Below, in pieces: positions 40,770-60,576 of a stretch of 64,000 bases of DNA. The stretch's first letter is position 1, and each line of letters begins with the position of its first letter. Below the pieces are notes generated by a model. That model saw only the letters and a list, made by a program, of their open reading frames with translations. It did not search any database and was not told the DNA's origin. The stretch comes from Mesorhizobium sp. (lineage in GTDB: Bacteria > Pseudomonadota > Alphaproteobacteria > Rhizobiales > Rhizobiaceae): the NCBI GenBank assembly GCA_004020545.1, contig SAQE01000001.1, forward strand, positions 186,001-250,000. Direction: 5' to 3'. The position numbers and the translations under genes were made by a program.

Positions 40770-41966
40770 ATGACCTCTTACCGCAATTCCGATCCGCGGC
40801 CGCCGATCATGCAGGGTTCGCCGCCGAAGCTGATCCCTCCGAAGCTCGATTGGGACAGGGGTCCCTGGAACCGCTGGGCCTTCCAGAACATCCGCGAGGT
40901 ACTGCCGACTGTCGAGGTCTGGCGCGGCCACGGCCACCGCCATCGCTTGGAGCGTGCCGAGGTCGACCTCGACGATCTGGCGGTGGTGGATGGCGAAGGC
41001 CGCCCAACGACGCTCGCCGGACTGCTCGACGAGACCTATACCGACGGCTGCCTGGTGCTGAAGGACGGCAGGATAGCCTATGAGCGATACTTCAACGGCA
41101 TGGACGAGCGCACGCTGCATCTGTCGCAGTCGATGGCGAAATCGGTCACCGGTTCGGTGTTCGGCATCCTGGTCGGGCGCGGTCTGATCGACCCGGCAAG
41201 GCTGGTGACGGACTATCTTCCGGAACTGGCAGTGACCGCCTGGACTGGCGCCATCATGCAGCAGGTGCTCGACATGACGACGGGCGTGCGCTTCTCCGAG
41301 GAGTACACTGATCGCTATTCCGAGATCGGCCAGGTCGACGTCGCCAGCGGCTGGAAGCCGATCCCGCCGGGCAGCGATCCCGACTTCCAGTGGCCGACGC
41401 ACATGTTCGAATTGATCCTGCGGCTGAAGGACAAGGTGCGGGAGCATGGCGAGGCCTTCGAATACCGCTCGATCGAGACCGATGTGCTCGCCTTTATCAT
41501 GGAGCGCGTGAGCGGCAGGCGGCTGGCGCAGCTCGTCTCGGAAGAGCTCTGGCAAAAGCTCGGCGCCGACGAGAGCGCCTGCTTCACCGTCGACAGCGCC
41601 GGCTATGCGCTGGCCGAGGGCGGCTTCAACGCGACGCTGCGCGACTATGGCCGCTTCGGCCAGCTCATCCTCGACAATGGCGGCGGCGTGATCCCGGCCG
41701 AGTGGATCGAGGCAACGCGCACCGGCAAGCACGGACCGAACTTCAATCCCAGCCTGCCGGAGGGTAGCTATCATAATCAGTTCTGGATCGAGGATCCGCG
41801 CTCGCGCTCGCTGATGTGTCGCGGTGTATTCGGGCAGTTGATCCATATCGACTGGGACAACAGGATGGTCGTGGTGAAGCTTTCGACCTATCCGGATTTC
41901 ACCAACATCGCCTATTCGGTGGCGACGCTGAAAGCCGTGCACGCTATCGCTACGGCTCTCGCCTGA
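40770..41966 (+). CDS. Serine hydrolase of the beta-lactamase / 6-aminohexanoate-dimer-hydrolase fold (first copy)
   Basis: A 398-residue protein without signal peptide. The penicillin-recognising SxxK motif is 'LSQSMAKSVTGSVFG' (S121, K124), and the second motif Tyr is Y232 in 'AFEYRSIETDV'. Tyr179 and Asp190 sit the same distance from the Ser as two residues important in nylon-dimer hydrolase. This points to hydrolysis of a linear amide or ester rather than a beta-lactam; exact substrate unknown. The ATG at 40770 has GGGAGG 5 bases upstream. It follows the Pot operon hairpin and precedes a second gene of the same fold. Confidence 0.8.
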   Translation: MTSYRNSDPRPPIMQGSPPKLIPPKLDWDRGPWNRWAFQNIREVLPTVEVWRGHGHRHRLERAEVDLDDLAVVDGEGRPTTLAGLLDETYTDGCLVLKDGRIAYERYFNGMDERTLHLSQSMAKSVTGSVFGILVGRGLIDPARLVTDYLPELAVTAWTGAIMQQVLDMTTGVRFSEEYTDRYSEIGQVDVASGWKPIPPGSDPDFQWPTHMFELILRLKDKVREHGEAFEYRSIETDVLAFIMERVSGRRLAQLVSEELWQKLGADESACFTVDSAGYALAEGGFNATLRDYGRFGQLILDNGGGVIPAEWIEATRTGKHGPNFNPSLPEGSYHNQFWIEDPRSRSLMCRGVFGQLIHIDWDNRMVVVKLSTYPDFTNIAYSVATLKAVHAIATALA

Positions 41967-41997
41967 AAATCAGAGACAAAAGTACCGGGAGACAATC

Positions 41998-43176
41998 GTG
42001 GCCGGCAAGACTGCGTTCGAGACCAGATACGGCTTTGCCCGCAAGGACGTGCGGCTCGACAATTGGCGTCTCAGGCCGTTCAGCCAATGGTCGTTCCAGA
42101 ATGTCGGCGAACTGGTGCCGAGCGTACATGTTGCAGCAGCGCCCGGCGGCGAGGAACAGGCGAAGCCTCTCGGTGCGTTGCTCGAAGAAAAGGTCACGCT
42201 CGCTGGCGGCGCCGAAACCGTCGCAGCTTTGCTCAAGCGTTCCGACACCGACGGGCTGACCATCCTGAAGGGTGGCAAGTTGGCCGGCGATTGGTCGGCG
42301 CCGCATATGGCGTTCGGGTCGCGCCACATCGTCTTTTCGATCAGCAAGTCGGTCACGGCGATTCTCGCAGGCATTCTGGAAGGCGAGGGGGTGTTCGACC
42401 CTGGGGCGCCAGTGGCAGAGTACATCCCCGAAGCCAAGGGCTCGGCCTATGGCGATGCCAGCGTGCGCAACGTGCTCGACATGACGGTCAGCCTCGATTT
42501 CGAGGAAGCCTATCTCGATCCGGAAAGCGCCTTCGCCCGCTATCGCCGCGCGACGCTGTGGAATCCGGGTGGCGGGTCGGAAAGCCTTGCGGCGTTCCTG
42601 CTGACGCTGCAGCGTCTCGCCGAGCCGCATGGCCAGACCTACCGCTACCGCTCCCCCAATTCGGATATGCTGGGCATTCTTATCGAGCGGGCATCCGGCA
42701 AACGGGTCAGCGACCTGCTCAGCGAGAAAACGTGGCTGCCGCTCGGCGCCGCGAGCGAGATGTCCGTTACCGTCGACATGGAAGGAACGGCGCGCACCGC
42801 CGGTGGCATGTCGATGACGCCGCGCGATCTTGCCCGCATCGGCGAGATGATGCGGCAGGGCGGCATGGCCAATGGCCGGCGCATCGTGCCTGAGGCCTGG
42901 GTGCGCGACACGGTTGCCACCGGCGGCAGCCATGAAACCTGGCAGCGCGGCACGATGGCGTTCCTCTTCCCCGAAGGGCGCTATCGCAACAAATGGTACC
43001 AGATGGGCAAGGCAAGCGGCGCCTTCTGCGGCATCGGCATCCACGGCCAATGGATTTACGTCAACCCTAGGGACGAGGTGGTGATCGCCAAGATGTCGTC
43101 GCAGCCGGAGCCGGTCGACGATGTGCTTGACCTCGATATCGTCGCTTTCTTCGAGGCGCTGAGCGCGATGGTTTAA
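41998..43176 (+). CDS. Serine hydrolase of the beta-lactamase / 6-aminohexanoate-dimer-hydrolase fold (second copy)
   Basis: A 392-residue cytoplasmic-looking protein with SxxK in 'IVFSISKSVTAILAG' (S114, K117), Y172 and a YRS motif at Y217 ('TYRYRSPNSDMLG'). The N-terminus 'WRLRPFSQWSFQNVGELVPS' resembles the first copy's 'WNRWAFQNIREVLPTVEV', so the pair comes from an old duplication, but overall they differ much. GTG start at 41998 with GGGAG 6 bases upstream. Gap to the first copy is 31 bp, so they are cotranscribed. Confidence 0.8.
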   Translation: MAGKTAFETRYGFARKDVRLDNWRLRPFSQWSFQNVGELVPSVHVAAAPGGEEQAKPLGALLEEKVTLAGGAETVAALLKRSDTDGLTILKGGKLAGDWSAPHMAFGSRHIVFSISKSVTAILAGILEGEGVFDPGAPVAEYIPEAKGSAYGDASVRNVLDMTVSLDFEEAYLDPESAFARYRRATLWNPGGGSESLAAFLLTLQRLAEPHGQTYRYRSPNSDMLGILIERASGKRVSDLLSEKTWLPLGAASEMSVTVDMEGTARTAGGMSMTPRDLARIGEMMRQGGMANGRRIVPEAWVRDTVATGGSHETWQRGTMAFLFPEGRYRNKWYQMGKASGAFCGIGIHGQWIYVNPRDEVVIAKMSSQPEPVDDVLDLDIVAFFEALSAMV

Positions 43177-43298
43177 GCCGTTCGGCTGGTCGCATTCATA
43201 GCTGTTTCCTGTGGACCTCCAGGGTCGGTTGAAAACAGCGCGGTTGGCGGGACGGGCATCCCGGCCTATGGTCGCCGCTCTTTTCGACAGGGACCAGC

Positions 43299-45620
43299 AT
43301 GGCATCGGACATCAAGCGCATCGCAGCAATCATCGCGGCCGAGATCGGTTCGCGGCCGGAGCAGGCCGCGGCGGCGATCGGGCTTCTCGACGAAGGCGCC
43401 ACGGTGCCGTTCGTGGCGCGTTACCGCAAGGAAGTCACCGGCGGGCTCGACGACACGCAGTTGCGCGATCTTTCCGAGCGGCTGGCCTATCTGCGCGAGC
43501 TCGATGCGCGTCGCGAGACGATCCTCGGCTCGATCCGTGAGCAGGGCAAGCTGACCGAGGATCTGGAGGCCAAGATCGCGGCGGCAAGCACCAAGGCCGA
43601 GCTCGAGGACATCTACCTGCCCTATAAGCCGAAGCGCCGGACCAAGGCCGAGATCGCCAAGGAACGCGGGCTCGGGCCGCTGGCCGCAGCGATCCTGGCC
43701 GACCGTTCGGCGGCGCCGGCCGAGCTCGCGCTCGCCTATGTCACCGAAGAAGTGCCCGATGCGAAGGCGGCGCTCGAAGGCGCGCGCGACATCCTGTCGG
43801 AGCAGTTCGCCGAGAATGCCGATCTGGTCGGCAAGCTGCGCGCCTATATGAAGGAACGCGCCTTCCTGCGTGCCAAGGTCGTCGACGGCAAGCAGGAAGC
43901 CGGCGCGAAATTTTCGGACTATTTCGACCATGTCGAGCGTTGGGCGGGCGTGCCCAGCCACCGCGCCTTGGCCATGCTGCGCGGCCGCAACGAGGAAGTG
44001 CTGTCGCTCGACATCGAGGTTGATGCCGATGATCAATCGCCGGTGAAGCCGGTCGAGCGCATGATCGCCAGTGCCTATGCGATCGGCGCCAGCTTGCCGG
44101 GCGATCGCTGGCTGATGGAGGTCGCCGGCTGGACCTGGCGGATAAAACTGTCGCTGCATCTGACGCTCGACCTGATGCGCGACCTGCGCGAGCGGGCCGA
44201 GGAAGAGGCCATCCACGTCTTCGCCCGCAACCTCAAGGATTTGCTGCTTGCGGCCCCCGCCGGTTCGCGGCCGACCATGGGGCTCGATCCCGGCATACGC
44301 ACCGGCGTCAAGGTGGCGGTGGTCGACGGCACCGGCAAGCTGGTGGCGACAACGACGGTCTATCCGTTCCCGCCGAGAAACGATGTGCGCGGCACCCAGG
44401 CGGAACTCGCCGCGCTCATCCGCCTGCACAAGGTGGAACTGATCTCGATCGGCAACGGCACCGGCAGCCGCGAGACCGAGAAACTGGTCGCCGACATGTT
44501 GTCGGATCTGCCGGCAGGTGCCGGGCCGAAGCCGCTCAAGGTGATCGTCAGCGAGGCGGGCGCCTCGGTCTATTCCGCTTCCGCCACGGCAGCGGCAGAG
44601 TTCCCGGGCCTGGACGTGTCGCTGCGTGGCGCGGTGTCGATCGCGCGGCGCCTGCAGGACCCGCTCGCCGAGCTGGTCAAGATCGAGCCGAAGTCGATCG
44701 GCGTCGGCCAGTACCAGCACGATGTCGACCAGTACCGGCTCGGCCGCTCGCTGGAAGCGGTGGTGGAGGACGCGGTCAACGCCGTCGGCGTCGACCTCAA
44801 CACGGCGTCCGCGCCGCTGCTGGCACGCGTTTCAGGGTTGGGGCCGTCGCTCGCGGAAGCAATCGTCGCGCATCGCGACGCTGGCGGTGCTTTCGGAACA
44901 CGACGCGACTTGCTCAAGGTAGCACGGCTCGGGCCGCGCGCGTTCGAGCAATGCGCCGGCTTCCTGCGCATCCCGAACGGCGTGGAGCCGCTTGATGCTT
45001 CCTCGGTGCACCCGGAAGCCTATGGCGTGGCGAAAAGAATAGTCGCCGCCTGCGGGCGCGACGTGCGCTCGCTGATGGGCGACAGCGCGGCACTCAAGGC
45101 GCTCGACCCGCGCGTCTTCGTCGACGAGCGCTTCGGTCTGCCGACCGTGCGCGACATCATCGCAGAGCTGGAAAAGCCTGGACGCGACCCGCGTCCCGGC
45201 TTCAAGACGGCGACCTTTGCCGAGGGTGTCGACGACATCAAGGACCTGAAGCCCGGCATGCTGCTCGAAGGCACCGTCACCAATGTCGCGGCCTTCGGCG
45301 CCTTCGTCGACATCGGCGTCCACCAGGACGGACTGGTGCATGTCTCGCAACTGGCCGACCGCTTCATCAAGGATGCGCATGAGGTGGTGAAGGCGGGCGA
45401 CGTGGTGAAGGTTCGCGTCGTCGACGTCGACATCAAGCGCAAGCGCATCGGGCTTTCGATGCGCAAGGATGGCGGCGAGGGCGGTGCACCCAGAGGTGGT
45501 CAGCGCGACCAGGGCCGAGGCAAGCCGGCACAACGCTCGTCGGCGCCACAGCGCCAGCCGGAAAAGCCGGCACAGGGCGCGTTTGGTGCTGCGCTCGCCG
45601 AGGCGATGAAGCGCAAATAG
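43299..45620 (+). CDS. tex: Tex, RNA-binding transcription accessory protein
   Basis: A 773-residue cytoplasmic protein with the Tex layout: N-terminal helical region ('[20 protein letters not shown]'), YqgF-like nuclease-fold domain ('[20 protein letters not shown]'), helix-hairpin-helix repeats ('[20 protein letters not shown]') and a C-terminal S1 RNA-binding domain ('[20 protein letters not shown]'). A basic Gly/Gln/Arg tail follows. It acts in transcription and RNA handling and is found in most bacteria. Its stop codon directly abuts that of the converging LysR gene, with no spacer. Confidence 0.95.
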
Positions 45621-47934: not shown

Positions 47935-50900
47935 ATGGCAATACTGGCAGCCGTCCACCACCTGACCCATTACAAATACGATCGGCCGGTGGTGCTCGGC
48001 CCCCAGGTGATCAGGCTGCAGCCGGCGCCGCATTCGCGCACCAAGGTGCTCAGCCACTCGCTGAAGGTCGAGCCGAAGAACCACTTCGTCAACCTGCAGC
48101 AGGATCCTTACGGCAACTTCCTCGCCCGCTTCGTCTTCCCGGAGCCGGTGAGCGAGCTGAAGATCGAAGTCGACCTCGTCGCCGACATGACGGTCTACAA
48201 CCCGTTCGATTTCTTCGTCGAACCCTCGGCCGAAACCTTTCCCTTCGACTATCCGGAAGAGATCAGGGAAGACCTCGCCATCTACCGGACGCCGGAGCCG
48301 GTGGGACCGCTCTTGTCGAAGTTCCTGGAGAGCATCGACCGCAGCCCGGCAAACACCGTCAATTTCCTCGTCGACCTCAATGCGCGGCTGCAGCGCGAGA
48401 TCGCCTATATCGTGCGCATGGAGACCGGTGTCTACTCGCCGGAGGAGACGCTGGCCGCGGGCAAAGGTTCATGCCGGGATTCGAGCTGGCTGCTGGTGCA
48501 AACCCTGCGCAACCTCGGCATCGCGGCGCGTTTCGTGTCCGGCTATCTGATCCAGCTCAAGCCCGATCTCGTCTCGCTCGACGGACCGCCCGGAACCTCG
48601 GTCGATTTCACCGATCTGCATGCCTGGTGCGAGGTCTATATTCCGGGTGCCGGCTGGATCGGCTTCGATCCGACCTCAGGCCTGCTTACCGGCGAAAGCC
48701 ATGTGCCGCTTGCCGCCACGCCGCATTTCCGCAACGCCGCGCCGATCTCCGGCATGGCGAGCTTCGCCAATGTCGATTTCAACTTCGACATGCGCGTCGA
48801 CCGCATCGCCGAGCATCCGCGCATCACCAAGCCGTTCTCCGACGAAAGCTGGGAAGCGCTCGATGCGTTGGGCAACAAGGTCGATGCCATTTTGCAGGAA
48901 CAGGACGTGCGGCTCACCATGGGTGGCGAGCCGACCTTCGTGTCGATCGACGATTTCGAGTCCGCCGAATGGAACACGGCCGCTGTCGGCCCGACCAAGC
49001 GCGACAAGGCGGATGAGCTCATCCGCCGGCTGCGCGAACGCTTCGCGCCGGGCGGCTTCCTGCATTACGGCCAGGGCAAATGGTATCCGGGCGAGAGCCT
49101 GCCGCGCTGGACCTTCTCGCTTTACTGGCGCGCCGATGGCGAGCCGGTGTGGCGCGACCCGTCGCTGATCGCGCGGGAAAAGAGCACGGTTCTCGTCGGA
49201 CCCGAACAGGCGGAAAGCTTGCTCACGGCGATCGCCGGCGAGCTCGGCCTCGACAAGGGCATGGTCAGCGAGGCCTATGAGGATCCGGCCGAATGGCTGC
49301 TCAAGGAAGGCAAGCTGCCGGACAATGTCGATCCGTCCAACTCGAAGCTGGAGGACCCGGAAGAGCGCAGCCGCATGGCGCGCGTCTTCGAGCGCGGCCT
49401 GACCAAGCCGTCTGGCTATGTCCTGCCGGTGCAGCGTTGGAACAGCCAGGCCGCAGGACAGCGCTGGCGCTCGGAGAAATGGAAGACAAGGCGCGGCCGG
49501 CTCTTCCTGGTGCCGGGCGATTCTCCGGTCGGCTATCGTCTGCCGCTCGGCACGCTGCCCTATGTGCCGCCGGCGCAGTTCCCCTACATCGTGCCGGTCG
49601 ACCCTTCTGTGCCGCGCGGTCCGCTGCCGGCGCGCGAGGCAATCTTGCCGGAAGCCGCTCCGGTTGAGCCTGAAGGCGCCGACGAAATGGCCCGTCGTCA
49701 GCAGGCGGTATCCTTCACGGCAGCGACTGGCCAGCAGGACCGCGTCGAGCAGGAGATCACCGAGATCGGCGGCGCGGTGCGCACGGCGCTCACCGTCGAG
49801 CCGCGCGACGGACGGCTCTGCGTTTTCATGCCGCCGGTCGAGGCGCTGGAGGATTATCTCGAACTGGTGGCTGCGGCTGAGAATGCGGCGAAGGCGGTTG
49901 GGCTGCCGGTGCATATCGAAGGCTACGGCCCGCCCCACGATCCGCGCCTCAACGTCATCCGCGTCGCGCCCGATCCAGGCGTCATCGAGGTCAACATCCA
50001 TCCGGCTGCCAACTGGCAGGAATGCGTTGCCACGACCACGGCGATCTACGAGGAAGCCAGGCAGTCGCGGCTTGGGACCGACAAGTTCATGATCGACGGC
50101 CGCCACACCGGCACCGGCGGCGGCAACCATGTCGTGGTCGGCGGCGCGACGCCCAACGACAGCCCGTTCCTGCGCCGGCCGGACCTGTTGAAGAGCCTGG
50201 TGCTGCAATGGCAGCGGCATCCGTCGCTGTCCTATCTGTTTTCCGGCCTGTTCATCGGCCCGACCAGTCAGGCGCCGCGCTTCGACGAGGCGCGGCACGA
50301 TTCGCTCTATGAGCTCGAGATCGCGCTGGCGCAGGTGCCGCATCCGGACAAGGGAGAGGCGCCCTTGCCATGGCTGGTCGACCGGCTGTTCCGCAATCTG
50401 CTCACCGATGTCACGGGCAACACGCATCGCTCGGAAATCTGCATCGACAAGCTGTTCTCGCCCGATGGCCCGACCGGCCGGCTGGGGCTGGTCGAGTTCC
50501 GCGGCTTCGAGATGCCGCCCAACGCGCGCATGTCGCTTGCCCAGCAGTTGCTGGTCCGCGCCATCATCGCCCGCGCCTGGAAGAATCCGCTCGACGGCCG
50601 CTTCGCGCGCTGGGGCACCTCGCTGCACGACCGCTTCATGCTGCCGCACTATGTCTGGGCGGATTTCCTCGATGTTCTGGAGGATCTGAAGCTCAACGGC
50701 TTCGACTTCCGCCCGGAATGGTTCGCCGCGCAGCTCGAATTCCGCTTTCCCTTCTGCGGCGAGGTGCGGCATGCCGGCGTCAAGCTGGAACTGAGGCAGG
50801 CGCTGGAGCCCTGGCACGTGATGGGCGAGCAGGGCGCGATCGGCGGCACCGTCCGCTTCGTCGACTCTTCCGTCGAGCGGCTGCAGGTGAGGACCGAAGG

Positions 50901-51294
50901 ACTGAACCCGGAGCGCCATGCCATCGTCTGCAACGGCCGCATCGTGCCGATGAAGGTCACCGACAGCAGGGAGATCTCGGTGGCCGGCGTGCGCTTCAAG
51001 GCCTGGCAGCCGGCCTCCGGCCTGCATCCGGCCTTGCCGGTCAACACGCCGCTGGTCTTCGATATCTACGACCGCTGGTCGGGCCGCTCGATCGGCGGCT
51101 GCGTCTATCATGTCGCGCATCCCGGCGGCCGCAACTACGACACCTTCCCGGTCAACGGCAACGAGGCCGAGGCGCGGCGGCTTGCACGCTTCGAACCGCG
51201 CGGTCATACGCCGGGCAGCTACGTGCTCGAAGCCGAAGAAGCCTCTGAAGACTTCCCCATGACCCTTGACCTCAGGCGGCCGGCAAGACTCTGA
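47935..51294 (+). CDS. Transglutaminase-like protein fused to DUF2126
   Basis: A 1119-residue cytoplasmic protein. The N-terminal transglutaminase part has a beta-sandwich-like start ('[20 protein letters not shown]') and a papain-like core with the catalytic triad C180 ('[16 protein letters not shown]'), H229 ('[15 protein letters not shown]') and D245 ('IGFDPTSG'). From about residue 290 to the end is DUF2126, with '[20 protein letters not shown]' and '[20 protein letters not shown]', resembling a carboxylate-amine ligase-like catalytic domain. It is the first gene of an operon with an ATP-grasp/alpha-E gene and a second transglutaminase. Comparative genomics has predicted such operons to make or cut peptide or amide bonds; no product is known. 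Confidence 0.88.
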
Positions 51295-51300
51295 TCAAGA

Positions 51301-53712
51301 ATGGCAAAGGGGAATCAAAAACGAGCGAGCGGCAGGCCGCGGGCGCAGGGCCTGCTGGAGCACTACCGTCCGATCGACGGTGTCGTCGACGAGATGGTCG
51401 ACGCATCAGGCAATCCGCGCCCGGCCTGGCGTTCCTTCATCGAAGCGCTCGACGAACTGGGGGCTGAGACGCTCGGACAGCGATTTGCCCGCGCCGACCA
51501 GTATCTGCGCGACGCCGGCGTCTACTACCGCGTCTACGACAAGGCCGGCGCCAACGAGCGCGAATGGCCGCTGGCGCATGTCCCTCTGCTGATCGACGAG
51601 AAGGAATGGGCCGAAATCAGCGCCGGGCTCGTCCAGCGTGCCGACCTGTTCGAGGCGATCCTGGCCGACGTCTACGGTCCGAACCGGCTGATCGAGAAGG
51701 GCATCCTGCCGGCTGGGCTGATCGCGGCCAGTCCCGAATATCTGCGCCCGGTCGCCGGCGTCCGTCCGGCCAGCGGTCATTTCCTGCACATGGTCGCCTT
51801 CGAGCTCGGCCGCGGCCCGGACGGGCGCTGGTGGGTGCTGGGCGACCGCACCCAGGCGCCGTCGGGCGCCGGCTTCGCGCTGGAGAACCGCGTCGCCACC
51901 ACGCGCGCTTTGTCCGACATCTATGGCGAAATGCATGTGCACCGTCTTGCCGGCTTCTTCCGCCGCTTCCGCGACGCTCTGAACGGCATGGCAAGAGAGT
52001 CCGGCGGACGCGTCGCCATCCTGACGCCCGGACCGCTCAACGAGACCTATTACGAGCACGCCTATATCGCGCGCTATCTCGGCATCATGCTGCTCGAGGG
52101 CGAGGACCTGACCGTTTCCGGCGGCCGGCTGATGGTTCGCACCGTTTCGGGCCTGATGCCGATCGGTGTTTTGTGGCGGCGGCTCGATGCGGCCTTCGCC
52201 GATCCGCTCGAGCTCAACCCGGACTCGCAGATCGGCACGCCGGGCCTGGTCGAGGCGATCCGCCGCGGCACCGTCTCGGCCGTCAACGCGCTGGGTTCGG
52301 GCCTGATGGAAACGCGGGCGCTGCTTTCCTTCCTGCCCAGGATCGCCCAGGAACTGCGGAGCGAGGATCTCTCCCTGCCGAGCATCGCCACGTGGTGGTG
52401 CGGGCAGCAGACCGAACGCGACCATGTGCTTGCCAACATCGACCGCATGGTGATTGGCCCGGCGCAGTCGACGCGGCTTGCCTTCGAGGACGATGGCGCG
52501 ACGCGGCTGGGCCTGGCGCTTTCGTCAGGGGAGCGGGCGGAACTGATCGCGCGGATCGAGACGGACGGTGCCGGCTTTGTCGGCCAGGAAGCCGTTACGC
52601 TTTCGACGACGCCGGTCTTTGCCGGCGGCCGGCTGGAGCCGCGGCCCGCCAGCCTGCGGGTCTATCTGGCGCGAACCCAAGAAGGCTGGACCGTCATGCC
52701 TGGAGGCTTTGCGCGCGTCGGCTTCTCGCTCGACCCGACGGCGATCGCCATGCAGCGCGGCGGCCAGGCCGCCGATGTCTGGGTGGTCAGCGACAGGCCG
52801 GTCGAACGCGAGACGCTGCTGCCGCAGGAGCATGACAGCTTCACCCGGACCATGCCCGGCAGCCTGCCAAGCCGCGCGGCGGAGAACCTGACCTGGCTCG
52901 GCCGCTATATCGAGCGCTCGGAAGACACGGTGCGCGTGCTGCGCGCCTATCATGTCAGGCTGGCGGAGACGTCCGATCCCGAGATGCCGTTGCTCGCCGA
53001 TATCAGGGACTATCTCGAGCCGTTCGGCATCGAGGTCGAATCGGCGATCCCGCTTGGTCTGATCGGCACATTGGACAGCGCCGTCTACAGCGCCGGCCAG
53101 ATCCGCGACCGCTTCTCGCCGGACGGCTGGCTGGCGCTGAAGGATCTGTCGAAGACGATCCATAAATTCGCCGGAACGGTGGCGCCCGGCGACGACGCGA
53201 CACGGGCGATGACCGTCATGCTGCGCAAGCTTGCGGGCTTCTCGGGCCTGCTGCACGAGAACATGTACAGGTTCACCGGTTGGCGTTTCCTGGAGATCGG
53301 CCGCCGGCTGGAGCGCGGCATCCAGATCGCCCGGACGCTCGCCCGGCTGACCGGGACCGGGGCGCCGGAAGGCGCGCTCGACATGATGCTGGAGATCGGC
53401 GACAGCGTGATGACCCACCGCCGGCAATATCCGGTGCAGGCGGGGCGGCGCACGGTGATCGACCTTCTGGCGCTCGACCCGCTCAATCCGCGTTCCATCC
53501 TGTTCCAGCTCGAGCGGCTGAAGGCCGAGATCGGCATGCTGCCTTCCGTCGGCGGCGAGGGGCATATGTCGCCGGCGGCGAAAGAAATCCTGCAGCTCAA
53601 CACGGCGATCGCCGTCATGGAACCTTCGGACATGACCGCCAGGGTGCTCGACGAACTCGCCAACCAGATCGGCGATCTCTACAACAGCCTCGCCAAGGCT
53701 TATTTCGGTTAG
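51301..53712 (+). CDS. Circularly permuted ATP-grasp ligase fused to an alpha-E domain
   Basis: An 803-residue fusion. Residues about 1-480 form the circularly permuted ATP-grasp domain ('HFLHMVAFELGRGPDGRWWV', 'ALENRVATTRALSDIYGEMH', 'EHAYIARYLGIMLLEGEDLT', 'AVNALGSGLMETRALLSFLP'). Residues about 520-803 are the helical alpha-E domain (DUF403; 'SRAAENLTWLGRYIERSEDT'). In many bacteria these are separate neighbouring genes, so the fusion confirms that they work as a unit. ATP-grasp enzymes join a carboxylate to an amine or thiol using ATP, here possibly forming a peptide. It starts 6 bp after the first gene and ends with its stop directly before the next ATG. Confidence 0.88.
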   Translation: MAKGNQKRASGRPRAQGLLEHYRPIDGVVDEMVDASGNPRPAWRSFIEALDELGAETLGQRFARADQYLRDAGVYYRVYDKAGANEREWPLAHVPLLIDEKEWAEISAGLVQRADLFEAILADVYGPNRLIEKGILPAGLIAASPEYLRPVAGVRPASGHFLHMVAFELGRGPDGRWWVLGDRTQAPSGAGFALENRVATTRALSDIYGEMHVHRLAGFFRRFRDALNGMARESGGRVAILTPGPLNETYYEHAYIARYLGIMLLEGEDLTVSGGRLMVRTVSGLMPIGVLWRRLDAAFADPLELNPDSQIGTPGLVEAIRRGTVSAVNALGSGLMETRALLSFLPRIAQELRSEDLSLPSIATWWCGQQTERDHVLANIDRMVIGPAQSTRLAFEDDGATRLGLALSSGERAELIARIETDGAGFVGQEAVTLSTTPVFAGGRLEPRPASLRVYLARTQEGWTVMPGGFARVGFSLDPTAIAMQRGGQAADVWVVSDRPVERETLLPQEHDSFTRTMPGSLPSRAAENLTWLGRYIERSEDTVRVLRAYHVRLAETSDPEMPLLADIRDYLEPFGIEVESAIPLGLIGTLDSAVYSAGQIRDRFSPDGWLALKDLSKTIHKFAGTVAPGDDATRAMTVMLRKLAGFSGLLHENMYRFTGWRFLEIGRRLERGIQIARTLARLTGTGAPEGALDMMLEIGDSVMTHRRQYPVQAGRRTVIDLLALDPLNPRSILFQLERLKAEIGMLPSVGGEGHMSPAAKEILQLNTAIAVMEPSDMTARVLDELANQIGDLYNSLAKAYFG

Positions 53713-54588
53713 ATGCTTTACGACGTCCGGCTTCATCTGCACTACGAATACGCCTCCGCCGCCGGCGGCGGCCGGCACCAGGTGCGCGTCTTGCCGCAGA
53801 CGATCGCCGGCGTGCAGCGGGTGATTGCCGCGTCATTGTCTTTTCAGCCGATGCCGGCAGAAAGGGCGGATTTTTCCGATTTCTTCGGCAACAACGTCAC
53901 CTCGATCGCCTTTCGCGAAGCGCATGAGGAACTCGACATCAGGATGAGCGCGCGGGTTTCTGTCTCTCGGCCGGAACCAGGGCTGGACGTTTCGCCCGAC
54001 ATCCACGGTTTGAGGGCGGAACTGGATGCCGTGCGCTCGCTGTCCCCTGCCGCGCCGCATCATTTCCTCGCCGCCAGCGACTATGCCGGCATCAATGCGG
54101 CGATCACCGCCTATGCGCGGGAGAGCCTCTCGGGTTCCACGGTCGGCACCGCGGTCGATCTCTGCAACCGCATCCATCGCGATTTCACCTATGACGGCAA
54201 GGCGACCACCGTGCAGACCCGGGCCAGCGACGCTTTCGCGCTGAAACGCGGGGTGTGCCAGGACTTTTCGCATATCATGATTGCCGGCCTGCGCGGCCTG
54301 GGCATTCCCGCCGGCTATGTCAGCGGCTTCCTGCGCACCATTCCGCCGAAAGGAAAACCGAGGCTCGAAGGCGCCGACGCCATGCATGCCTGGGTAAAGG
54401 TCTGGTGCGGCCGCGACGCCGGCTGGCAGGAATTCGATCCAACGAACGGCATGCGGGCGAGCAATGACCATATCACGGTCGGATACGGCCGCGACTATTC
54501 CGACGTGGCGCCGATCGTCGGCGTCTTGAAAACCACCGGCGGCCAGGTCGGCGAGCAGGCGGTCGACGTCATTCCTGTCGCCGCCTGA
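53713..54588 (+). CDS. Second transglutaminase-like cysteine protein
   Basis: A 291-residue protein with the transglutaminase N-terminal domain ('LYDVRLHLHYEYASAAGGGR') and core. Triad: C182 ('LKRGVCQDFSHIMIAGL'), H225 ('GADAMHAWVKVWCG') and D242 ('WQEFDPTNGMRAS'). There is no signal peptide. It begins at the base after the ATP-grasp/alpha-E stop codon. In this family the cysteine core usually acts as a peptidase or amide transferase; with the ATP-grasp partner it may recycle or attach the product. Confidence 0.9.
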   Translation: MLYDVRLHLHYEYASAAGGGRHQVRVLPQTIAGVQRVIAASLSFQPMPAERADFSDFFGNNVTSIAFREAHEELDIRMSARVSVSRPEPGLDVSPDIHGLRAELDAVRSLSPAAPHHFLAASDYAGINAAITAYARESLSGSTVGTAVDLCNRIHRDFTYDGKATTVQTRASDAFALKRGVCQDFSHIMIAGLRGLGIPAGYVSGFLRTIPPKGKPRLEGADAMHAWVKVWCGRDAGWQEFDPTNGMRASNDHITVGYGRDYSDVAPIVGVLKTTGGQVGEQAVDVIPVAA

Positions 54589-57614: not shown

Positions 57615-57759
57615 TCCCCCCTCCGGCGCCTGGCCCAATTTTGCGAGCCGGGCTTGGACCATGCCGGGGTGGCGGTTTGTCCCTGAAACGAGTAATGCCA
57701 CGCCATCAAGGCGCCTGGACGTGCCGGAGGGCGCGCCAAGCATGGCGCAGGGCTTCCAT

Positions 57760-57780
57760 TCCCGCCATGTGACGGCGGGA
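57760..57780 (+). promoter_or_regulatory. Small hairpin in the leader of the aldehyde dehydrogenase gene
   Basis: Arms TCCCGCC (57760-57766) and GGCGGGA (57774-57780) are exact complements with a 7-base loop, ending 16 bp before the ATG. It sits just ahead of the ribosome-binding site (GAAAGGGA) and could influence translation. Evidence is limited to the fold. Confidence 0.3.
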
Positions 57781-57796
57781 TCTGAAAGGGACAAAA

Positions 57797-59311
57797 ATGA
57801 CGATAGCGAAGGAAACGGCCTCACTTCTGGAGAAACTGGGCGTTGCCAAGGATGCGCTTTTTGGCGGCGACCTCATCGTGCGCAGCCCGGTGACGGGCGA
57901 ACAGATCGCGGCGCTGAAGTCGATCTCGGCGGCCGATGTCGGCAAGGCCATCGACGCCGCGCACAAGGCCTTCCAGGCCTGGCGGCTGGTGCCCGGGCCA
58001 AAGCGCGGCGAGCTGGTGCGCCTGCTCGGCGAGGAATTGCGCGCGCACAAGGCGGAACTCGGCCGGCTGGTGTCGATCGAGGTCGGCAAGATCCCGTCCG
58101 AGGGGCTCGGCGAGGTGCAGGAAATGATCGACATCTGCGATTTCGCCGTCGGCCTTTCGCGCCAGCTCTACGGCCTGACCATCGCCACCGAGCGTCCCGG
58201 GCATCGCATGATGGAAACCTGGCATCCGCTCGGTGTCGTCGGCGTGATCTCGGCCTTCAACTTCCCGGTTGCGGTGTGGTCGTGGAACGCGGCACTCGCC
58301 TTCGTCTGCGGCGACGCGGTGGTGTGGAAACCGTCGGAAAAGACGCCGCTGACCGCGCTGGCCTGCGAGGCGATCTTCAAGCGTGCCGTCAAGCGCTTCG
58401 GCGCCGATGCGCCGGAAGGCCTGCTGCAGGTGCTGATCGGCGACCGCGCCGTCGGCGAGGTGCTGGTCGACCATCCGAAGGTGCCGCTGGTTTCTGCCAC
58501 CGGCTCGACCCGCATGGGCCGCGAGGTCGGGCCGCGGCTGGCGAAGCGCTTTGCGCGTGCGGTGCTGGAGCTCGGCGGCAACAATGCCGGCATCGTGGCG
58601 CCCACCGCCGATCTCGACATGGCGCTGCGCGCCATTGCCTTCGGCGCCATGGGCACCGCCGGCCAGCGCTGCACGACGCTGCGCCGCCTGTTCGTGCATG
58701 AGAGCGTCTATGACGCGCTGCTGCCGCGGCTGAAGAAGGCCTATCAGAGCGTCTCCGTCGGCAATCCGCTGGAGACCTCGGCGCTGGTCGGTCCGCTGAT
58801 CGACAAGGCCGCCTTCGACAACATGCAGAAGGCGCTCAAGGAAGCGGAAGCGCATGGCGGGAAGGTCACCGGCGGCACCCGGTTCGAGAACGGCCACCCC
58901 GACGCCTACTACGTGCATCCGGCGCTGGTCGAGATGCCGAGCCAAGTGTCGCCGGTGACGGAAGAAACCTTTGCGCCGATCCTCTATGTGATGAAATATT
59001 CCGATTTCGACGAGGCGCTTGAGCTGCACAATGCCGTCGGCGCCGGCCTGTCGTCGTCGATCTTCACCCGCGACCTGCAGGAGTCCGAGCGCTTCCTCGG
59101 TGTCGACGGTTCGGATTGCGGCATCGCCAACGTCAATATCGGCACCTCGGGCGCCGAGATCGGCGGCGCGTTCGGCGGCGAGAAGGAAACCGGCGGCGGC
59201 CGCGAGAGCGGCTCGGATGCCTGGAAGGCCTATATGCGCCGGGCCACCAACACGGTGAACTTCTCCAAGGCGCTGCCGCTGGCCCAGGGCGTGTCGTTCG
59301 ACATCGACTGA
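57797..59311 (+). CDS. amaB: ALDH7-family aldehyde dehydrogenase (aminoadipate-semialdehyde / piperideine-6-carboxylate type)
   Basis: A 504-residue NAD-dependent enzyme. Catalytic E258 ('VLELGGNNAGIVAP') and C292 ('GTAGQRCTTLRRLF') are seen, with the ALDH7 pattern 'VISAFNFPVAVWSWNAALAF' and the C-terminal 'SGAEIGGAFGGEKETGGGRE'. Family members oxidise 2-aminoadipate semialdehyde (in equilibrium with piperideine-6-carboxylate) to 2-aminoadipate in lysine breakdown, which then feeds glutaryl-CoA, the substrate of GcdH encoded at 46639. ATG at 57797; AAAGGGA upstream. Gene symbol by family only. Confidence 0.83.
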   Translation: MTIAKETASLLEKLGVAKDALFGGDLIVRSPVTGEQIAALKSISAADVGKAIDAAHKAFQAWRLVPGPKRGELVRLLGEELRAHKAELGRLVSIEVGKIPSEGLGEVQEMIDICDFAVGLSRQLYGLTIATERPGHRMMETWHPLGVVGVISAFNFPVAVWSWNAALAFVCGDAVVWKPSEKTPLTALACEAIFKRAVKRFGADAPEGLLQVLIGDRAVGEVLVDHPKVPLVSATGSTRMGREVGPRLAKRFARAVLELGGNNAGIVAPTADLDMALRAIAFGAMGTAGQRCTTLRRLFVHESVYDALLPRLKKAYQSVSVGNPLETSALVGPLIDKAAFDNMQKALKEAEAHGGKVTGGTRFENGHPDAYYVHPALVEMPSQVSPVTEETFAPILYVMKYSDFDEALELHNAVGAGLSSSIFTRDLQESERFLGVDGSDCGIANVNIGTSGAEIGGAFGGEKETGGGRESGSDAWKAYMRRATNTVNFSKALPLAQGVSFDID

Positions 59312-59398: not shown

Positions 59399-60265
59399 TC
59401 AGCTTTCGCCCGCGGCGGGAAAACAGGCTTCGAAGGCCGCATCGACAATGGCGAGCTTGGCGGCCTGGACGGCCATGTATTCCTCGAAGAACTGCCGCGA
59501 CACCCACATCACCGAATGTCCGCGCTGGCCGACCCAGCCGATGCTGCCAAGCGCTTCGGCGTCGTGGAGCTTGCGCGCCAGATGGGTGCGCGACAGCTTC
59601 AGCCAATGCGCGAATTCGCTGATCGAAATGACGCTGGTCGGAATCCTGTCGAGACTGGCGTCGTCCGGGTCGATGCCCGCCATCAGCCAGTCCATGACGA
59701 TGCCGCCATTGTTCAGCCAGATAAACAACGAGAAGGTCTGCTCGGGTTCGCGCACCGGACCGGATGCCAGCAAGCCGTCGCAGATCAACGGCTGCAGCTT
59801 TGCCAGCATACCGGGTCGTTCGAGGAAGGTTGCCAGCCGGGTTCCGCCGTCGATACGATCGAGCGTTCTCAAATGGGCATAAATCCAGTTGGTGAAGGTC
59901 TCGATGGTGGCCTCGGTCACCCGCAAGGGGTGAGCGCGGCCATCACCGCTCGCCGAAACATATTCGGCGATGTTGTAGTGCAGCATTTCCTTGACAAACG
60001 CCTCGGCGGTGTTGCGGCTGGCGACTGAATTGCGGCGCACGACCTCGATGAAACGCGCCAGTGTCATCTCGGTGCGGCGGTCATTGGGGTCGCGCCTGAA
60101 ATGCAGGGCCAGTCCGACATGGCCGAGCAGCCAGCGCTGCTGGGTGGCAAAGACGGAGGCAAGGCGCGGGCTGGTTTCGTAGACATGGATGAGCGCGCGC
60201 GACTGCTCCTGCACACTGCGGAGTGCTGCAGGATGACTGGCGATCTCTTCGGCGCTCAGCGGCAT
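59399..60265 (-). CDS. Unrecognised protein, possibly a transcription regulator
   Basis: About 288 residues, soluble, no family recognised. The C-terminal half contains a segment that looks like a winged helix-turn-helix ('VISISEFAHWLKLSRTHLAR', then LHDAEALGSIGWVGQRG). The N-terminal half is helical with 'RALIHVYETSPRLASVFATQ'. It converges with the aldehyde dehydrogenase gene and has a long upstream inverted repeat, which fits a self-regulating regulator. The ATG at 60263-60265 is used because AGGA lies nearby; a TTG 27 bases upstream is possible but has no ribosome-binding site. Confidence 0.6.
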   Translation of the reverse strand: MPLSAEEIASHPAALRSVQEQSRALIHVYETSPRLASVFATQQRWLLGHVGLALHFRRDPNDRRTEMTLARFIEVVRRNSVASRNTAEAFVKEMLHYNIAEYVSASGDGRAHPLRVTEATIETFTNWIYAHLRTLDRIDGGTRLATFLERPGMLAKLQPLICDGLLASGPVREPEQTFSLFIWLNNGGIVMDWLMAGIDPDDASLDRIPTSVISISEFAHWLKLSRTHLARKLHDAEALGSIGWVGQRGHSVMWVSRQFFEEYMAVQAAKLAIVDAAFEACFPAAGES

Positions 60266-60576
60266 TTCCTGCGGCACTCCATTCGATTCCAAGCAACTGC
60301 AAATGAAGATTTATAGCCTTCGCCGGTTGTGTCCAGTTGCCGATTGGAATAACGAATGACTGCTCGGCGATTTCTTTGCTAACCCCTTGCATCGGCTTGG
60401 AAAACTCCTCCCCGGTAATTGTTGGCCAGCAGTCGTGCTTCGGATGTCTCGTGTAAGTAGAGCAGGCCGGCTCCATCTTTCGCGATGCGGGCCGACAGCG
60501 GCGGCCTTTGCAACTTGCGGGCCGCATCCTATCGTGGCGGCTTGAAATCCATCGCCTCAGGCCGCCGAGTGAAACG
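60266..60576. other. 311-bp divergent non-coding region with a gapped inverted repeat
   Basis: No gene is seen. The notable structure is a gapped inverted repeat: the left arm 60281-60299 (ATTCGATTCCAAGCAACTG) pairs with 60334-60357 in blocks (CAGTTGC, ATTGGAAT and CGAAT) separated by 2-3 unpaired bases. It lies just upstream of the unknown minus-strand gene. The right half, 60358-60576, probably contains the promoter of the GNAT gene but no clear box. Confidence 0.45.

Follow-up and report, generated by a model that had tools for sequence, protein, structure and literature searches.

A transglutaminase operon of Mesorhizobium that combines a predicted amidoligase domain with a probable ATP-grasp pseudo-ligase

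Operons encoding an ATP-grasp enzyme, an Alpha-E protein, a transglutaminase and Anbu have been described previously (PMC6376114, PMC5666114). Iyer, Burroughs and Aravind reported in 2008 a family, exemplified by Rv2566, in which a transglutaminase-like domain at the N terminus is joined to a carboxylate-amine ligase domain at the C terminus; they saw no Pup-like open reading frame (ORF) nearby and suggested peptide formation (PMC2588565, section 6). Here we analyse a three-gene operon composed of the same domain families, located in a 64,000-nucleotide stretch of the soil bacterium Mesorhizobium sp. (contig SAQE01000001.1, positions 186,001 to 250,000), which is called the window below. Its first gene encodes a transglutaminase-like region followed by DUF2126, the second an ATP-grasp domain fused to Alpha-E, and the third another transglutaminase-like protein (Table 1). 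Neither the gene families nor the amidoligase idea nor the Anbu operon is new, and the making or editing of peptides has been predicted since 2008 (PMC2588565), while operons of the window type are widespread in bacteria and have been little tested. Our comparison indicates that the fused ATP-grasp is very probably inactive as an ATP-dependent ligase, and an intact counterpart is found elsewhere in the same genome.

The window set has three domain families in common with the Anbu operon, and an operon of that type is present in the same genome and adjoins the window-type set in other genomes. It differs in the fusion of DUF2126 to a transglutaminase, in the fusion of a degenerate ATP-grasp to Alpha-E, and in having no Anbu gene beside it. 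The Rv2566-type family, whose namesake we take to carry DUF2126, resembles the first gene in its N-terminal transglutaminase-like and C-terminal ligase-superfamily domains and in the lack of a Pup-like ORF nearby. Glutathionylspermidine synthetase/amidase (GspS) of E. coli also joins a cysteine amidase to a ligase, and the standalone ATP-grasp of the type found in the window's own genome keeps the positions aligned to GspS E330, N332, K498 and K533, which presumably bind Mg and ATP. In the window, however, the amidase-like domain is fused to DUF2126 instead of ATP-grasp, and the ATP-grasp is without those residues. The fused ATP-grasp/Alpha-E gene is not discussed in the section of the 2008 paper that treats the Rv2566-type family (PMC2588565, section 6). 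ATP-grasp, transglutaminase and protease genes are likewise united in the Rlo operon of Pseudomonas aeruginosa (RloC, RloB and the retropepsin RloA), but RloB is inactive and membrane-anchored and RloC has 24% identity with RimK (PMC12239564), whereas the window transglutaminases are intact and its ATP-grasp is degenerate.

The degeneracy was recognized by aligning the fused copies with the standalone ATP-grasp proteins of Anbu-type operons, using the numbering of the standalone protein in the window's own genome (E175, N177, K336 and K383). Of these four positions, 130 of the 144 fused proteins (142 distinct sequences in all) have lost every one and 14 retain one; without the named relatives, which are the best 80 of at least 590 matched places, the corresponding figures are 61/73 and 12/73. 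The standalone proteins possess all four in 61 of 62 cases, the remaining one being truncated because its stretch ends there. Similarly, the glycine-rich loop GG[YFWH]G is found in 62/62 standalone and 0/144 fused proteins. The window protein has G181, R183, R339 and G386 at the four positions and no GGYG loop, and among 12 further fused copies from genomes without DUF2126 a single one keeps one position and the rest none. The four positions fall on E330, N332, K498 and K533 of GspS in a global MAFFT alignment; two further MAFFT modes reproduce part of this pairing, the first for E330, N332 and K498, the second for K498 and K533. The pairing was made by MAFFT after an hhalign comparison of the ATP-grasp profile with GspS had proved uninformative. 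Weak Pfam matches of the standalone proteins to other ATP-grasp families span the K383 loop. As far as the accessible text of the open-access literature goes, we found no mention of this degeneracy.

The fold of the domain seems to be kept while the residues for the chemistry are lost, since the predicted structure of the fused protein (model m3a79c5dc9416; predicted local distance difference test score, pLDDT, 89.5) matches 3n6x best in a Foldseek search (E = 1.4e-28, template modelling score 0.85 by target length), followed by glutathione synthetases (best E = 1.0e-11) and GspS. Of the features expected of an active ATP-grasp, the protein thus has the fold, and it lacks the metal ligands, the two ATP lysines and the glycine-rich loop. 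The original prediction, made from the letters of the window, had taken this domain for an active ATP-dependent ligase whose product is processed by the two transglutaminases. Such an activity would agree with the CP_ATPgrasp_2 match over the whole domain (458.1 bits), with the predicted fold of 3n6x and glutathione synthetases, and with 47 columns that are at least 90% identical in both the fused and the standalone groups. We nevertheless regard it as very unlikely and reject it on the loss of the four positions and of the loop, because all of the 144 and 12 fused copies retain one of the four at most. The prediction had itself named the loss of ATP-binding residues as one observation that would tell against it, and this loss is what the alignment reveals. 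Many genomes probably carry a wrong annotation where the fused ATP-grasp is called a ligase.

The fused gene is not decaying, as judged from the low ratio of nonsynonymous to synonymous substitution rates (dN/dS). This ratio is 0.14-0.15 for the degenerate ATP-grasp domain and 0.08-0.10 for the fused Alpha-E (against four relatives), compared with 0.05 for the intact standalone ATP-grasp (against two relatives); hence the degenerate domain is less constrained than the standalone one, yet still under purifying selection. A single branch with 100/100 support divides the fused from the standalone forms in a 75-row tree of sampled sequences, in which long branches were flagged inside the fused group. 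The fused clade also possesses conserved positions of its own (e.g. R183, Q185 and E337) that align to or adjoin the lost metal and ATP residues. One may ask if the cleft was repurposed, with the new set R183, Q185, E337, E430 and P449 binding a different ligand or catalysing an ATP-free reaction. These positions are conserved in 120-139 of the 144 fused proteins and differ from the standalone consensus, and the low dN/dS is in line with the idea; however, clade-specific residues can equally be structural, and the placement of these ones along the cleft is read from the alignment only, so that we consider this explanation unlikely. In the Alpha-E part, the ER pairs E538-R539 and E671-R672 are kept. 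A set of 57 standalone Alpha-E proteins has 28 conserved columns; 15 of them are retained by 80% or more of 69 fused copies and 13 fall short of this.

As the fused ATP-grasp is without the residues needed, any bond-making must come from a neighbouring protein or from an intact sister enzyme elsewhere in the genome. The neighbour would be DUF2126, which Pfam labels a 'putative amidoligase' and which is strongly conserved among relatives. The proposal that clusters of this kind have amidoligase functions, attributed by the original prediction to Aravind's group, is indeed in print (PMC2588565). The original prediction overlooked the DUF2126 domain itself as a predicted ATP-dependent ligase. We regard it as rather likely that DUF2126 is a real ligase.

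The sister enzyme was also overlooked. On another contig of the genome (C155) lies an operon of a standalone ATP-grasp (489 aa), which keeps all four residues and the loop, an Alpha-E protein (313 aa), a transglutaminase (272 aa) and a proteasome-family protein (243 aa), adjoined by a gene with an Lrp/AsnC domain. We call the proteasome-family gene Anbu-like on two grounds, its position within the operon and a match to the proteasome family of 32.3 bits (cut-off 22.4). A second proteasome-family match, on contig C144, is probably HslV, and neither of the two is on the contig of the window; in agreement with the earlier statement that no Ntn-hydrolase partner is visible, none occurs among the flanking genes scanned.

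The three-gene operon is conserved far beyond chance. It is complete in 70 of the 80 best named relatives, whereas eight have only the first gene, one lacks the last gene and one was uncalled; four of the eight first-gene-only stretches (L142, L147, L160 and L192) end within about 2.3 kb downstream and the other four have about 8 kb. Pfam DUF2126 is possessed by 63 of 150 genomes of the order and by 120 of 398 of the phylum. Wide stretches were taken from 39 of the 63 DUF2126-positive genomes of the order and from 40 of the 85 DUF2126-positive genomes of the phylum outside the order, hand-picked for spread. The fused gene shares the stretch with DUF2126 in 37/39 order loci, 34/40 phylum loci and 71/79 named relatives. 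The two order genomes without it beside DUF2126 (L099 and L110) carry the fused gene at another place, while in six of the 40 phylum loci DUF2126 has no fused gene in its stretch. Alpha-E is found in all 120 DUF2126-positive genomes of the phylum, two or more times in 111 of them, and in 92 of 278 DUF2126-negative genomes, these being raw genome counts that ignore the kinship of the genomes. Within the order, two or more Alpha-E matches are present in 60 of 63 DUF2126-positive genomes; the three exceptions come from assemblies that are 56-84% complete. In one phylum locus (L255, genome G399), and also in genome G520, the DUF2126 protein is divided over two reading frames, perhaps because the gene is broken or split, or because of a mistake in sequencing.

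The window-type and the Anbu-type sets are often adjacent in other genomes. In phylum loci, examined as stretches of 12-20 kb, standalone ATP-grasp and Alpha-E genes lie beside DUF2126 in 20/40 and Anbu in 8/40 (L233, L234, L237, L240, L241, L244, L249 and L257, with the Anbu-like gene next to or near the DUF2126 gene). For instance, L253 and L258 have six genes in a row: ATP-grasp, Alpha-E, transglutaminase, transglutaminase-DUF2126, fused ATP-grasp/Alpha-E and transglutaminase. Extra conserved partner genes were also sought and rejected: beyond the operon's own genes and Anbu (8/81 loci), every family is limited to at most 7 of the 81 loci, and the operon flanks differ among relatives over these 81 loci. 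A functional link of the window module to the Anbu set is likely in our view.

Nitrogen limitation appears to be a condition under which such genes are expressed. In Burkholderia cenocepacia, the genes I35_5080-83 (DUF404/DUF407, DUF403, transglutaminase-like and large transglutaminase-like) belong to the targets shared by NtrC and sigma-54, and the values given for the ntrC mutant are -8.2, -9.4, -9.4 and -6.0 (PMC5491218). They would correspond to the standalone ATP-grasp, Alpha-E and two transglutaminase genes, the large one with DUF2126. In Pseudomonas putida grown on nitrate versus ammonium, PP_2685 ('bacterial proteasome, beta subunit') and PP_2688 (circularly permuted ATP-grasp) show log2 changes of 4.44 and 3.99, respectively (PMC8050072). 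We scanned 300 bp upstream of the genes for sigma-54-like sites with at least 10 of 12 positions, taking the expectation from simple single-base shuffles. Before the standalone ATP-grasp such sites were found in 7/42 and 6/19 cases (0.25 expected in each; e.g. L078, L059, L063, L243 and L239), which is more than in shuffled sequence and fits the NtrC control reported in Burkholderia. Before the DUF2126 gene they occur in 3/39, 2/78 and 3/40 (expected 0.65, 1.1 and 0.25) and before Anbu in 0/32 and 1/8 (expected 0.4 and 0.15). The family names were not found in one Sinorhizobium and one Paraburkholderia nitrogen-starvation paper, and the accessible literature gave no nitrogen-expression data for the window's own genome.

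Together with the sister operon, these data suggest to us, with about even confidence, that the window operon is an add-on module to a nitrogen-regulated, Anbu-type amide-forming system, probably cytoplasmic and containing a pseudo-ligase/Alpha-E scaffold. A cytoplasmic location is likely because none of the seven proteins of the two operons in this genome has a long hydrophobic segment. The fused protein would be a pseudo-ligase whose fold, with Alpha-E, may act as a substrate- or partner-binding scaffold for the adjoining transglutaminase and for the intact ATP-grasp and Alpha-E. ATP-dependent amide bonds would be made by the DUF2126 domain, the intact standalone ATP-grasp or both, and the transglutaminase-like domains may cut or transfer amides, in one case from within the polypeptide that also carries the predicted ligase, just like the amidase of GspS. 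Anbu would then be the removal enzyme. The nitrogen-limited expression in Burkholderia and Pseudomonas putida suggests that a small peptide or amide is made and turned over to handle scarce nitrogen, and we tentatively think of a gamma-glutamyl-type compound. A more speculative version, to which we give a low probability, holds that the intact and the pseudo ATP-grasp form an ancient pair, in which the pseudo-ligase/Alpha-E adaptor presents substrate to the intact ligase, DUF2126 and the transglutaminases, and Anbu trims or removes the product under nitrogen starvation. If this were true, the pair would represent a conjugation-and-removal cycle distinct from Pup and ubiquitin. Of the make-and-process system that was originally proposed, the candidate amide-forming and -processing operon without a precursor peptide nearby is supported, while the fused ATP-grasp as the bond-maker, with at most one of four positions kept in every copy examined, does not. 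For biochemists, the comparison tells which ligase can be active, which one is probably a conserved pseudo-ligase and that both sets are likely to belong together, and hence guides the choice of protein, partners and growth condition.

Several observations weigh against this interpretation, besides the kinship ignored in the co-occurrence counts. Within the order, standalone ATP-grasp and Alpha-E genes lie beside DUF2126 in only 3/39 loci and Anbu in none of 39. No good sigma-54-like site precedes the genes of the window's own genome, the best having 9/12 positions at the window operon and 6/12 at the sister operon. Thirteen genomes have two Alpha-E matches and no DUF2126 match, and in the 12 from which stretches were taken (G078 was left out) the fused gene is always found without DUF2126 beside it, 10 of them with the last transglutaminase. 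Two of these 12 genomes belong to the genus of the window, where a search with the DUF2126 protein matched only its transglutaminase part; for another, G284, the genome is incomplete and the contig short. DUF2126 is thus ruled out as an obligate partner of the fused gene. Taking the loci with only the fused gene and those with only DUF2126 together, the fused gene and its transglutaminase seem to be the steadier pair, and DUF2126 a frequent but separable companion. The ligase prediction for DUF2126 is weakly supported by our own tests: a model of middling quality (pLDDT 77) gave weak Foldseek matches to glutamine synthetases (E between 0.018 and 0.07 among the matches listed, best probability 0.96), and hhalign against GCS2 ligases gave nothing significant (probability 0.3). 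A comparison with the ATP-grasp profile by hhalign was not informative either, and a PDB sequence search with the first protein returned no match, its family profile matching transglutaminase-like entries only. Pull-downs in Yersinia revealed no specific interaction among the Anbu-operon proteins (PMC6376114). Finally, we found no substrate, product or phenotype for the operon, nor an assigned product for genes of this kind in the accessible open-access literature. The three order loci with both sets (L042, L075 and L076, of family f44) have them directly adjoining, with a divergent standalone Alpha-E whose identity to the copy in the window's own genome is 29-30%.

The catalytic triads of both window transglutaminases are intact. 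The Cys-His-Asp triad is kept in the first-gene transglutaminase of 157/157 relatives and in that of the third gene in 144/144, so that the intact triad noted before in the second transglutaminase extends to the first as well. In the sister operon, Cys is kept in 36/39 and His and Asp in 39/39, the own-genome copy being intact; in the other three relatives the catalytic Cys is replaced by Ser (two) or Ala (one), unlike in the window-type copies. In two loci (L091 and L095), standalone ATP-grasp and Alpha-E genes are followed by a transglutaminase (299 and 305 aa) that best matches the transglutaminase part of the DUF2126 protein, with DUF2126 absent and no Anbu labelled in the stretch.

With three transglutaminase-like proteins of the two operons having intact triads, plus an Anbu-like gene, in one genome, the system could also be imagined as a proteolysis or deamidation module, in which DUF2126 is no ligase and substrates are degraded or deamidated under nitrogen limitation to free nitrogen, with Anbu as the peptidase partner. 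The nitrogen-limited expression described above for other bacteria would suit this as well. The mycobacterial protein Rv2569c is presumably a relative. It was reported to degrade proteins, as a serine-type protease that is not stopped by cysteine-protease inhibitors (PMC11081392). However, the intact standalone ATP-grasp (61/62) and the strong conservation of DUF2126 argue for bond formation, and the Anbu of Yersinia bercovieri was inactive on the peptide substrates tried, whereas the ATP-grasp of its operon releases phosphate from ATP (PMC6376114). We therefore consider a purely degradative or deamidating role improbable.

A further alternative is a pathway for ribosomally synthesized and post-translationally modified peptides (RiPPs), such as a graspetide pathway, with the precursor peptide coded nearby. 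ATP-grasp and cysteine-protease-fold enzymes do occur in RiPP pathways. Against this, the search for conserved small ORFs near orthologous operons, which had been recommended together with the remark that no precursor gene is visible, brought up no widely conserved one. It covered up to 2 kb from the operon at 160 loci and gave 5,803 small ORFs, among which the cluster with the most remote pairs spans 8 loci, and the widest of the 15 clusters listed spans 14 loci with 4 remote pairs; these clusters look to us like other frames of flanking genes. A precursor peptide within this distance is hence rejected, and with no larger gene family beyond the operon's own genes and Anbu in more than 7/81 loci, the RiPP explanation is extremely improbable.

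The boundaries of the operon and of its degenerate regions are given in Table 1. The three genes had been delimited correctly before, as all three ORFs are open, the Pfam domains match and the intergenic gaps are 6 bp (51295-51300) and 0 bp. Pfam assigns Bact_transglu_N, Transglut_core and DUF2126 (PF09899, 1347.8 bits, cut-off 27, full length) to the first protein, Alpha-E (PF04168, 187.7 bits, cut-off 20.8) to the second in addition to CP_ATPgrasp_2, and Bact_transglu_N and Transglut_core (PF01841) to the third, whereas a search of NCBIfam gave no match.

Table 1. Positions of the operon genes and of the degenerate ATP-grasp regions within the window.
Feature	Position	Strand	Details	Basis
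Transglutaminase-like region + DUF2126 protein, 1119 aa	47935..51294	+	Transglutaminase region residues 6-246 (C180, H229, D245); DUF2126 residues 278-1114	Pfam, relatives alignment
Probably inactive, degenerate circularly permuted ATP-grasp + Alpha-E, 803 aa	51301..53712	+	ATP-grasp residues 95-473; Alpha-E residues 522-802	Pfam, alignment, model m3a79c5dc9416, Foldseek
Degenerate stretch in fused protein	51841..51855	+	G181-D182-R183-T184-Q185 replacing standalone E-D-N-x-R	Alignment
Degenerate ATP-lysine / glycine-loop region in fused protein	52456..52518	+	Residues 386-406; G386 replacing K383, GGYG loop absent	Alignment
Stand-alone transglutaminase-like protein, 291 aa	53713..54588	+	C182, H225, D242	Pfam, relatives alignment

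The host genome comprises 7.0 Mb, and the nearest named relatives are Mesorhizobium, with up to 95% identity over the DUF2126 protein. The nearest flanks of the operon include a LysR regulator and an acyl-CoA dehydrogenase upstream, and a topoisomerase IB and a sigma-factor-like gene downstream. Four long ORFs near the operon have no Pfam match (41950-43305, 57661-58701, 57821-59029 and 59399-60292), some of which are possibly non-coding frames.

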